A DNA stretch of 13,054 nucleotides from Bacteroidales bacterium. Its GTDB lineage: Bacteria; Bacteroidota; Bacteroidia; Bacteroidales; UBA12481. Under the pieces are notes generated by a model that was not told where the DNA came from, searched no databases, and saw only the letters and a list, made by a program, of their open reading frames with translations. The position numbers were made by a program, and so were the translations under genes. Positions 10,469-13,054 of this stretch are shown here, piece by piece. Positions within the stretch are counted from its first letter, which is position 1. Each line of letters opens with the position of its first letter. The DNA is taken from assembly GCA_021160155.1 (NCBI GenBank), contig JAGHDB010000403.1, positions 1 to 13,054 of the forward strand, in the 5' to 3' direction.

Positions 10469-10984
10469 ATGAAGAGCATCCTTGATGTTGATACCGGTGA
10501 AGTAAAAACCGGTTTAAAAGACACTGTTTTAAAATCAAACGCCATTGGTTCATGCGTTGTCATTGTAGCTTATGACGCAACAAAACAGGCAGGTGCTCTG
10601 GCTCATGTTATGGTACCCGGAGCAGCCCCTGAACGGCTGAAATCACATCGCACCAGATTTGCTAAAGATGCTATTGAAGAAATGATCAACCGCATGACTC
10701 AACTGGGAGCAAAAAAAGAGCACATGAAAATTAGTTTGATCGGAGGAGCAAATGTGCTTAAAAGAGAAAATGATACCATTGGTCTTGAGAATCTTTCTTA
10801 TATTGAAAAATTACTTACAGAAAACGGTTTGGAAATCAGTGGGAAAGCAGTGGGAGGCACACTAAGAAGAACCGTAAAATTCGATATCGAAAAAGGGGTT
10901 GTGTATTATACTGAGGGAGATTCCCATGAGATGTTGCTTTGGAGAAAAACGGCGGAAAAATCTAAAAAAAATGAAAGCCTTTAA
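10469..10984 (+). CDS. cheD: CheD, protein-glutamine deamidase
   Basis: The 171-residue protein matches CheD, a cytoplasmic enzyme that hydrolyses specific Gln side chains of chemoreceptors to Glu. The catalytic set is visible: Cys29 in SNAIGSCVVIVAYD, His46 in GALAHVMVP (17 residues later, the same spacing as Cys27/His44 of Thermotoga CheD), and Ser23 where that enzyme has Thr21. Family blocks IGGANVL, GLENLSYIEKLL and GKAVGGTLRRTVKFD follow. The length is normal and the start ATG gives the expected N-terminus. No receptor, CheA, CheW, CheR or CheB gene is in the window. Its 3' end overlaps the start of a histidine kinase by 14 nt, which implies translational coupling and a shared function. 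Confidence 0.92.
   Translation: MKSILDVDTGEVKTGLKDTVLKSNAIGSCVVIVAYDATKQAGALAHVMVPGAAPERLKSHRTRFAKDAIEEMINRMTQLGAKKEHMKISLIGGANVLKRENDTIGLENLSYIEKLLTENGLEISGKAVGGTLRRTVKFDIEKGVVYYTEGDSHEMLLWRKTAEKSKKNESL
10964..10971 (+). repeat. A8 run spanning the cheD-kinase overlap
   Basis: Eight A residues; the last is the first base of the kinase ATG (10971-10973). Loss of one A would put the cheD frame in register with the kinase and give one continuous CheD-kinase reading frame. Confidence 0.9.
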
Positions 10985-13054
10985 TAATAAAACCGATCAG
11001 GTTCAGCTCGAAATAAAAAAATTGCAAGCAAAAATTGCCGAGTTGAAAAAAACCGAAATAGAACGGGATACGGCTTATCAGCAACTTGATGCAATCAACC
11101 AACAATTAAAAGCTAACGAACAACAACTCAGAGCCGCAAACCAACAACTCAAAGCTAACGAACAACAGCTCAGAGCCGTAAACCAACAACTCAAAGCTAA
11201 CGAACAACAACTCAGAGCCGCAAACCAACAACTCAGAGCCAGTGAGATTGAACTTCGGGAAAGTAAAGAAACAGCAGAAGAATATCTGAATATTGCCGCC
11301 GAAATCATCCTTACACTGGACAAGAACGGTAACATTACCCTGCTCAACGACAACGGATATAAACTGCTGGGTTATCAAAAAGGAGAATTGACCGGCAAAA
11401 ACTGGTTTACCAACTGCCTGCCCGAAAAATTCCACGATCAGGTCAAAAACGTTTTTTCAAGAATCATTTCAGGTCAGGTTGAAATGGATAAATTCGGCGA
11501 AAATCCGGTTATAACCCGAAATGGTGATGAACGACTGATATCCTGGAATAATACCATTATCCGGGATGAAAACGGAAACATTATCGGCATCCTCTCATCC
11601 GGTCAGGATATTACAGTTCGAAGAAAACTTGAAAAAAAACTTCTTGAAAATGAAAAACAATTCAGGAATCTTTTCAATGCCGTAACGGATCCTATTTTTA
11701 TTCACCCTTACAATCCTGCAGGTTTTGGCCGGTTTGTAGAAATCAACCAGGCAAGCTGCGATATTCTGGGTTATACCCGTGAAGAACTGCTTCAACTTAC
11801 TCCGGCTGACATCTCCGCTCCTGATGATGCCAGAATTAAAGGCAGCAAACAGGAACGAAAAAAATTGTTGGAAACGGGCAAACAGAGATTTGAAGCAGTA
11901 CACGTAAGAAAAGACGGAAGTACCTTAGTTGTTGAAATTACATCTACCATTATCAATTACAAAGGACAGACAGCCGGGATGTCGATCGCACATGACATTA
12001 CCAACCGTAAAAATGCCGAATTAATTCAAAGAATACTGCATCGCATTGCACAGGCAGCCGTAACAACAAAGAGATTAAATAAACTCTTTAAAACCGTAAG
12101 AAATGAATTATCTGCCCTGATTGATACCACAAATTTCTATATCGCTTTGTATGATTCTGAAACCGGAATACTTACGGCACATTTTGAAAAAGATGAAAAA
12201 GATGATATCCCTCCCTCCTGGCCTGCTGAAAAATCACTAACGGGGATGGTGATCCGGGATAAAAAACCGATGCTGTTGAAAAAAAATGAGATTAAACAAC
12301 TGGCAAAATCAGGGATGGTCAACCTGATGGGTGCAACCAGTGAGAGCTGGCTGGGAGTGCCCCTGTACATCGAAGGCAGGATCCTGGGAGCATTGGTGGT
12401 TCAGAGCTACGACAATCCGAATGCATATAACCGGAACGATAAGCAGATTCTTGAAAATATTGCCAATGAATTGAGCCAGTTCATCGAACGCAAACAGGTT
12501 GAAGAAGAGCTTATTTCAGCCAAAGAGAAAGCCGAAGAGAGCGACCGGCTTAAGTCGGCATTCCTGGCCAACATGAGCCACGAAATCCGAACCCCCATGA
12601 ATGCCATTATCGGATTCTCCGAATTGCTTAATGACCCGAATAATACTGAAGAAGACAAACAATTCTACATCAACACCATACAACAACGCTCTGAAGACCT
12701 CCTCTCTATCATCAATAATATCCTCGATATCTCTAAAATAGAAGCCGGACAGATGCCCCTTAACCTGCAGAAAATCAACCTGGAAGAGTTGATCCAGGAA
12801 GTACAGCAAACCACCCGGGTCACCTGGATAGATTCAGGAGTAAGAACCATTTCTTTCAATACCGACCTCCAACTCTCTCCCGACCATTTAACCATCACTA
12901 CCGATCCCGGTAAACTCAAACAGATCCTGAATAATTTGCTGAACAACGCTTTTCGGCATACTGAGAAGGGTGAAATCGTCTTGCGTTGTAAGCCACAGGA
13001 TTCTAAAACATTGCTGTTTTCTGTTGCCGATACCGGATGCGGCATTCCAACTGA
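10971..13054 (+). CDS. PAS-PAS-GAF sensor histidine kinase with Gln-rich coiled coil (3' end outside window)
   Basis: The frame is open from ATG 10971 to the window edge (694 complete codons). There is no signal peptide or membrane helix, so it is a cytoplasmic sensor. Residues 10-100 form a coiled coil built of heptads NQQLKAN/EQQLRAA. PAS domains follow at about 103-220 and 228-345, and a GAF domain at about 355-505 (NFYIALYD, SWLGVPLY, GALVVQS). The HisKA domain has phospho-acceptor His537 in NMSHEIRTPMNAIIGFSELL. The HATPase domain has the N box LNNLLNNAFRH and the first Gly box ADTGCGIP (Asp687), then the window ends; whether a receiver domain follows is unknown. It overlaps cheD by 14 nt. 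The coiled coil has eight Gln-Gln pairs at residues 37/38, 44/45, 51/52, 58/59, 65/66, 72/73, 79/80 and 86/87, in chemoreceptor-like A-x-x-Q-Q-x-x-A settings. Confidence 0.92.
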   Translation, partial: MKAFNNKTDQVQLEIKKLQAKIAELKKTEIERDTAYQQLDAINQQLKANEQQLRAANQQLKANEQQLRAVNQQLKANEQQLRAANQQLRASEIELRESKETAEEYLNIAAEIILTLDKNGNITLLNDNGYKLLGYQKGELTGKNWFTNCLPEKFHDQVKNVFSRIISGQVEMDKFGENPVITRNGDERLISWNNTIIRDENGNIIGILSSGQDITVRRKLEKKLLENEKQFRNLFNAVTDPIFIHPYNPAGFGRFVEINQASCDILGYTREELLQLTPADISAPDDARIKGSKQERKKLLETGKQRFEAVHVRKDGSTLVVEITSTIINYKGQTAGMSIAHDITNRKNAELIQRILHRIAQAAVTTKRLNKLFKTVRNELSALIDTTNFYIALYDSETGILTAHFEKDEKDDIPPSWPAEKSLTGMVIRDKKPMLLKKNEIKQLAKSGMVNLMGATSESWLGVPLYIEGRILGALVVQSYDNPNAYNRNDKQILENIANELSQFIERKQVEEELISAKEKAEESDRLKSAFLANMSHEIRTPMNAIIGFSELLNDPNNTEEDKQFYINTIQQRSEDLLSIINNILDISKIEAGQMPLNLQKINLEELIQEVQQTTRVTWIDSGVRTISFNTDLQLSPDHLTITTDPGKLKQILNNLLNNAFRHTEKGEIVLRCKPQDSKTLLFSVADTGCGIPT
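11097..11240 (+). repeat. 42-bp coding repeat in the kinase coiled coil (three full units plus part)
   Basis: Units at 11097-11138, 11139-11180 and 11181-11222 are nearly identical, and a partial unit covers 11223-11240. Each encodes 14 residues, two heptads with one Gln-Gln pair each. Differences are a handful of single-base changes, so the array is recent or homogenised and its copy number may vary in frame between strains. Confidence 0.93.

Follow-up and report, generated by a model that had tools for sequence, protein, structure and literature searches.

Why does a gene for CheD, the family of the chemoreceptor deamidases, overlap a gene for a sensor histidine kinase whose N-terminal part carries a regular array of glutamine pairs? 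The question is raised by the end of a 13,054-nucleotide stretch (hereafter the window: bases 1-13054 of contig C63, GenBank JAGHDB010000403.1) from the genome of a Bacteroidales bacterium, which is assembled in 411 contigs and is 81.6% complete. On the forward strand, cheD (10469..10984, 171 amino acids) is followed by the kinase gene (10971..13054), whose ATG at 10971 creates a 14-nt overlap, and kinase residues 34-90 (11070..11240) consist of eight [A/T]xxQQLxA units with 16 Gln in all. The present analysis shows that cheD genes of this kind and such QQ-heptad kinases are genetically linked, and it makes probable a dedicated CheD-sensor-kinase module in which a distinct CheD subfamily binds the arrays, probably deamidates them and thereby sets the activity of the kinase.

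The window protein is a true CheD by its family profile, its fold and its conserved Cys and His. It matches the CheD profile PF03975 with 76.4 bits (E 2.3e-21; cut-off 25) and misses the cut-off of the NCBI equivalog for chemoreceptor glutamine deamidase CheD (best 84.8 versus 240). Its AlphaFold2 model (predicted local distance difference test score, pLDDT, 93.9) superposes on the CheD of Thermotoga maritima (PDB 2f9z_C) with a template modelling score of 0.89 by target length and 1.8 Å. Furthermore, in 47 aligned CheDs, the window protein among them, Cys29 and His46 never vary and Ser23 is conserved to at least 90%, and these three residues align with the Thr, Cys and His of 2f9z, which we take to be the catalytic residues of the T. 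maritima enzyme. A preliminary description of this DNA had named the same three residues in a cheD overlapping the kinase gene by 14 nt, and both the coordinates and the alignment agree with it. This gene is the sole CheD match in the genome.

The kinase is seen over 694 amino acids, up to the contig end that cuts it. Downstream of the array, profile matches delimit, all on the forward strand, a first PAS domain (Pfam; residues 109-214, 11295..11612), a second PAS domain (residues 226-350, 11646..12020), a GAF domain (residues 369-506, 12075..12488), a HisKA phosphoacceptor domain (residues 528-593, 12552..12749) and the start of a HATPase_c domain, matched in part and cut by the contig end (12903..13049). 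With 75.3 bits for HisKA and 36.6 bits for the partial HATPase_c, both above cut-off, the protein passes as a sensor histidine kinase, and a domain scan of the 694 residues found no signal domain of a methyl-accepting chemotaxis protein (MCP). The array motifs start at residues 34, 41, 48, 55, 62, 69, 76 and 83; the eight QQ pairs are spaced by exactly seven residues and each lies within [A/T]xxQQxxA, so that the translation bears out what had been read at residues 34-90. The array fits, at seven-residue spacing, the receptor modification-site consensus [AST]xx[EQ][EQ]xx[AST]. It is in part a recent DNA expansion, since most of its DNA is a 42-nt tandem repeat (11097..11239, forward strand; 3.4 copies, 93% match).

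The arrangement recurs widely. A scan of genome contigs for related CheDs led us to keep 80 of 105 confirmed stretches, labelled Bacteroidota, Chlorobiota, Planctomycetota, Aminicenantes, Cloacimonadota, Omnitrophota, Neomarinimicrobiota, Nitrospirae and others, labels that belong mostly to metagenome bins and may be mistaken in places. When a strict array is defined as at least three consecutive [AST]xxQQxx[AST] motifs at spacing seven, 60 of the 80 loci have one. At 51 of these 60 the gene with the array is on the strand of cheD and begins -116 to +470 nt from the cheD end. Elsewhere it stands inside a CheD-PAS fusion (L007 and L051), in a gene 953 or 813 bp downstream of cheD (L027 and L057, respectively), in the next gene on the opposite strand (L035, L042), in a gene upstream of cheD (L043, L044) or in a 114-residue open reading frame (ORF) 3.8 kb away (L038). 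Kinase ORFs of the HisKA type have a strict array in 31 of 42 cases when they lie within 500 bp of cheD and in 2 of 25 when they lie farther off, the latter two being those at 813 and 953 bp (the HisKA-type tag comes from a home-made profile, with 11 of its 73 assignments weaker than 1e-15). Two of the loci, L009 and L010, are near-identical contigs (107 of 108 60-mers of L010 are found in L009) binned as Bacteroidetes and Desulfobacula, one of these bins probably being misassigned; L010 is still counted among the 80.

The kinases that carry the arrays are diverse. A domain scan of 20 proteins of relatives revealed, besides the HisKA class of the window, HisKA_2 (L008, L012, L024) and HisKA_3 (L016, L018, L026, L029, L053, L067) kinases, with arrays in N-terminal or interdomain position. 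The genes downstream of nine array kinases were scanned and eight are response regulators, namely a LuxR-type regulator (L024, L026, L053), a single receiver (L004, L025, L036, L078) or two receivers (L009); a nucleotidyltransferase follows in L006. Ten array proteins encoded away from or upstream of cheD were also scanned: four are kinases (L203, L210, L220, L227), two have PAS domains only (L222, L223), and for three short array ORFs of L229 and L230 the scan gave nothing convincing. The tenth is a dCache-HAMP protein (L226:1489-3105), encoded upstream of a CheD-PAS fusion; it has four QQ heptads, and no MCP domain was matched in it. At L044, the upstream gene overlaps cheD and encodes a 178-residue protein (L044:1205-1738) that has five QQ heptads and matches HAMP weakly; the QQ-heptad motif is absent from the kinase downstream.

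Is the association found as well when genomes are entered through the array rather than through CheD? An array profile, A2, was built from 25 arrays, all from genes beside CheD. Among 395 genomes of the window's class, five have CheD and nine match A2 at 1e-5; translation left two genuine arrays (G000 and G299), each adjoining a CheD of the array-linked subfamily, the seven other matches being dropped for stops, other repeats or lack of a motif run. The G299 array locus is identical to part of L009 and is not an independent find. Among 248 genomes of a planctomycete class labelled Phycisphaerae (that of G412, locus L024), 12 match the array profile and 93 have CheD, and in all 12 array genomes a contig with an array also carries CheD. 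In 11 of the 12 the two are on the same strand, with about 135-946 bp between the CheD Pfam match and the nearest array match; in G441 CheD lies on the opposite strand from the array, about 2 kb away. Co-presence in this class has a Fisher p of 5e-6 from presence alone, and the adjacency makes chance co-occurrence far less likely than this figure. Five of these genomes (G399, G412, G437, G441 and G679, the last with L055) hold loci already reached through CheD; the seven others (G449, G462, G469, G542, G628, G663, G676) had not been reached that way and all agree with the link. G542 and G663 have further strict arrays, in kinases whose contigs gave no CheD match.

In the reverse direction, the genomes of 50 of the 80 loci were searched for arrays, MCPs and CheR, and 49 of them match the array profile at E<=1e-8, a match being read as a strict array only where its locus was translated. 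The profile includes no row from 31 of the 50, of which 30 match, the genome of L010, the near-copy of L009, among them. A sample of 395 genomes of the phylum, overlapping the class sample and searched for arrays only, gave six matches: the window's, four of genus g216 (two of them, G757 and G710, with contigs equal in length to those of Chlorobium loci L068 and L074), and one in G1012, which proved to be a spurious 115-residue ORF of HSQQLTA-like units. For these array genomes, CheD was found in G746, and also on the contigs of Chlorobium loci L068 and L074; G734 was not checked for CheD. Arrays and the CheD subfamily are shown to co-occur near-exclusively in the samples searched. The motif enrichment that the preliminary description proposed to look for in cheD-linked kinases is found: every genuine-array genome in the two class samples has CheD beside an array.

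The motif itself is under selection, as codon statistics of 66 arrays from 53 loci (495 heptads, L010 left out) indicate. QQ is kept in 466 of the 495 heptads, and EQ, QE or EE occurs in 20. Neighbouring heptads share Leu in 94% of cases and Ala in 92%, with the same codon in only 14% of the shared Leu and 27% of the shared Ala; random draws from the codon counts would give 18% and 27%, respectively, which implies that synonymous change is saturated. Both Gln codons are used in 63 of the 66 arrays. At the position before QQ, N and E alternate from heptad to heptad, giving a period of 14 residues (identity 0.68 at lag 14 versus 0.13 at lag 7), and in 214 of 363 interior heptads QQL is followed by Arg or Lys. 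The search rule prescribed QQ and the small residues, but neither Leu nor the N/E alternation. Units 14 residues apart have a median nucleotide identity of 67% in the arrays of relatives, and by their sequence these arrays are old. Recent DNA slippage, considered as the whole explanation, is partly true for the window and is ruled out for the family by the saturated codons. Strict arrays comprise 3-15 heptads; compared with known structures and domains, they resemble mainly designed coils and weak coiled-coil families (the Pfam matches being weak only), and in the predicted structure of the L051 fusion the array forms a single continuous helix at residues 166-223.

The CheDs that accompany arrays form a branch of their own. 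On a tree of 88 array-linked and 33 other CheDs, a single label change suffices, with a support of 99 in the Shimodaira-Hasegawa-like approximate likelihood ratio test (SH-aLRT), the 88 having been picked mainly by similarity to the window CheD and not by array, which favours separation. The CheDs of L137, L141, L142 and L145, reached only via array searches, also fall within the subfamily. The 33 others are those of L084-L086 and of 30 loci with the best PF03975 hits in the planctomycete class, neighbours having been inspected for L084-L086 only. Two residues distinguish the branch: N95 is kept in 87/88 subfamily members versus 4/33 others, and R133 in 88/88 versus 0/33. The Cys is present in 87 of the 87 subfamily rows that have a letter there, and the His in 88 of 88.

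How far the module depends on chemotaxis was approached through the same 50 genomes. No MCPsignal match was found in 23 of them (27 have one), no CheR match in 14 and neither in 13, two of the latter being Chlorobium genomes G434 and G435 (loci L068, L074); assembly gaps may account for part of these missing matches. The partnership with CheR/CheB that had been envisaged as an option is accordingly not general. The idea of a module outside classical chemotaxis fits part of the set, namely the 23 genomes without an MCP match; the window's own genome, at its 81.6% completeness, has no MCPsignal match either but does have a contig with CheW and CheR. On this contig, C179 (L003, L088-L089), consecutive genes encode CheW, a fusion of CheW and CheR, and CheX-like and CheY-like proteins, with no CheA seen; on contig C65 (L002), CheR and a CheB-like methylesterase are encoded side by side, next to a GMP synthase-like gene. 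In this genome CheR and CheW were profile-matched, and the CheB-like, CheX-like and CheY-like calls were read from translations; neither CheW match lies in a CheA, for which no direct search was made. A chemosensory system may be present in this genome, with its receptor part missing from the assembly. In G399 and G437, which have two CheDs each, one adjoins an array and the other lies near CheR (in G399 near an MCP too), so that both kinds of CheD can coexist in one cell.

In the mechanism that we favour, a CheD of this subfamily, whose gene usually stands directly before that of its partner, would recognise the [A/S/T]xxQQLxA heptads along a helix adjoining PAS, GAF or HAMP domains of the sensor kinase and would most likely turn some array Gln into Glu. 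The negative charge added stepwise along the helix would shift the kinase between signalling states, the output passing via ordinary response regulators, and in cells that lack CheR no methylation would come after deamidation. The 16 Gln per chain of the window kinase make graded control plausible. We advance only tentatively, and lean slightly against, a bolder version in which CheD would write charges heptad by heptad as a widespread and graded covalent tuning, possibly a one-way memory or ageing counter where CheR is missing, and independent of chemotaxis in at least some lineages.

Several observations weigh against the module. The support is genomic, and binding, deamidation and an effect on kinase activity are what we infer from sequence. 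Twenty of the 80 loci have no strict array in reach; five of these have less than 130 nt of contig past cheD, and some others have relaxed motifs only. G404 (L014) has no array match at 1e-8. Four cheD-adjacent array ORFs (L015, L022, L047, L059) have PAS or GAF domains and no kinase domain in the ORF read; that of L032 runs to the contig end. The Chlorobium array kinases lie about 39-84 kb from cheD (L068, L074) and are not adjacent to it, so that CheD would work in trans. Three genomes of the window's class (G220, G251, G277; loci L084-L086) have CheD and no array: there, by Pfam, CheD lies between a HATPase_c kinase of 278-299 residues and CheB, apparently a neighbourhood of CheD and a kinase of another kind, so that CheD near a kinase need not imply an array. 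Finally, in Bacillus subtilis, binding of CheD to receptors and CheC appears more important than deamidation (PMC3513319), and by this precedent catalysis may be unimportant for array-linked CheDs too.

The last point leads to the main rival, namely that CheD binds the array without chemistry or regardless of it, the array being a multivalent dock that keeps CheD on the signalling helix, where it would act allosterically to activate or to brake, perhaps until another partner releases it. Up to 15 strict tandem heptads suit multivalent binding and, according to the same B. subtilis study, CheD-F102E deamidates about normally while chemotaxis fails (PMC3513319). Against docking only stand the Cys and His, invariant in the subfamily, and the rarity of EQ, QE and EE in the heptads, since Glu could probably serve a mere dock equally well; we consider this rival unlikely, and clearly less so than the ones that follow. 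Deamidation could also give way to covalent Gln-Lys links, made along or between array helices in a transglutaminase-like manner. The frequent Arg or Lys after QQL would suit such cross-linking, as would the weak fold neighbourhood (E 0.03) of the window CheD model with CNF1, a deamidase with transglutaminase activity. However, Arg (139) is commoner than Lys (75) after QQL and we know of no CheD that cross-links, and we hold this chemistry to be extremely improbable.

Two other explanations deny that the kinase is the target. If CheD served the chemotaxis receptors of the cell, the kinase would be merely a neighbour under shared control; the Che genes of the window's genome (CheW, CheW-CheR, CheX-like and CheY-like) and the MCP matches in 27 of the 50 related genomes speak for this. 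It is nevertheless a very improbable reading, given the 23 genomes and the window's genome in which no MCP match was found and the separate side of the tree on which array-linked CheDs stand, and it leaves the arrays beside cheD unexplained. The counter-view already raised in the preliminary description was that QQL heptads are a common coiled-coil filler of Bacteroidota kinases and the CheD neighbourhood incidental. The single predicted helix of the fusion array, weakly like designed coiled coils, and the recent DNA expansion in the window would both be expected of a filler. Yet genuine arrays are found in only 2 of 395 genomes of the window's class and matches in 12 of 248 of the planctomycete class, each with CheD on the same contig, and the motif stays constant across different kinase classes and array positions; within the genomes tested the filler explanation is refuted, and we give it next to no credence.

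The proposed module differs from known systems in its target. It shares family, fold, Cys and His with the chemoreceptor deamidase CheD of B. subtilis and T. maritima (PF03975, 2f9z), and its target motif resembles the receptor modification sites; chemoreceptor CheD acts on a receptor, whereas the partner here is a sensor kinase with 3-15 heptads and the CheD belongs to a branch with N95 and R133. The methylation helices of MCPs likewise bear heptad-spaced Gln/Glu pairs, and this is the likeness to the MCP system with CheR/CheB; the window kinase as read is without an MCP signal domain, and 14 of the 50 genomes with related CheDs are without a CheR match. In classical chemotaxis adaptation the partner is an MCP, while the neighbour of the window cheD is a PAS-PAS-GAF-HisKA kinase. 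In the CheC/CheD/CheY-P adaptation of B. subtilis, CheD binds the receptor and raises CheA kinase activity (PMC3513319); the target there is a receptor, and the presumed target here is the kinase itself. No CheC turned up among the neighbours scanned with Pfam, and no CheC-directed search was made. The kinase-CheD-CheB clusters L084-L086 of the window's class likewise place CheD beside a kinase gene, but their kinases of 278-299 residues have no array, CheB is on the other side and their CheDs fall outside the subfamily on the tree. The signalling helix is a helical segment that relays the signal between domains in sensor kinases and other signalling proteins (PMC1592074); the QQ array differs from it in being strictly tandem and tied to CheD, and CheD, glutamine and QQL are absent from the main text of that paper by a term search. 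Among the open-licence papers that literature searches listed, titles and abstract openings contained neither CheD with non-receptor kinases nor QQ arrays.

The enzyme family is a known one; what would be new is its class of partner and the repeated target dedicated to it. Chemoreceptors are known to adapt through covalent modification; if the module is real, a dedicated CheD would extend adaptation or memory to the two-component systems that regulate genes, the multi-PAS kinases of many uncultured bacteria would gain a testable post-translational control, and a conserved repeat with only weak Pfam coiled-coil matches would be accounted for. Chlorobium strains with such a CheD and arrays, of which G434 and G435 are without MCP or CheR match, make the module testable.

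Elsewhere in the window, 4534-6426 encodes, as read from translation, a cytochrome b-like N-terminus apparently joined to three similar PAS-like repeats. Two overlapping ORFs with CxxCH motifs, at 3227-3544 and 3480-4523, look like pieces of a multihaem cytochrome, and a short tandem repeat with 8- and 24-nt periods occupies 118-215.

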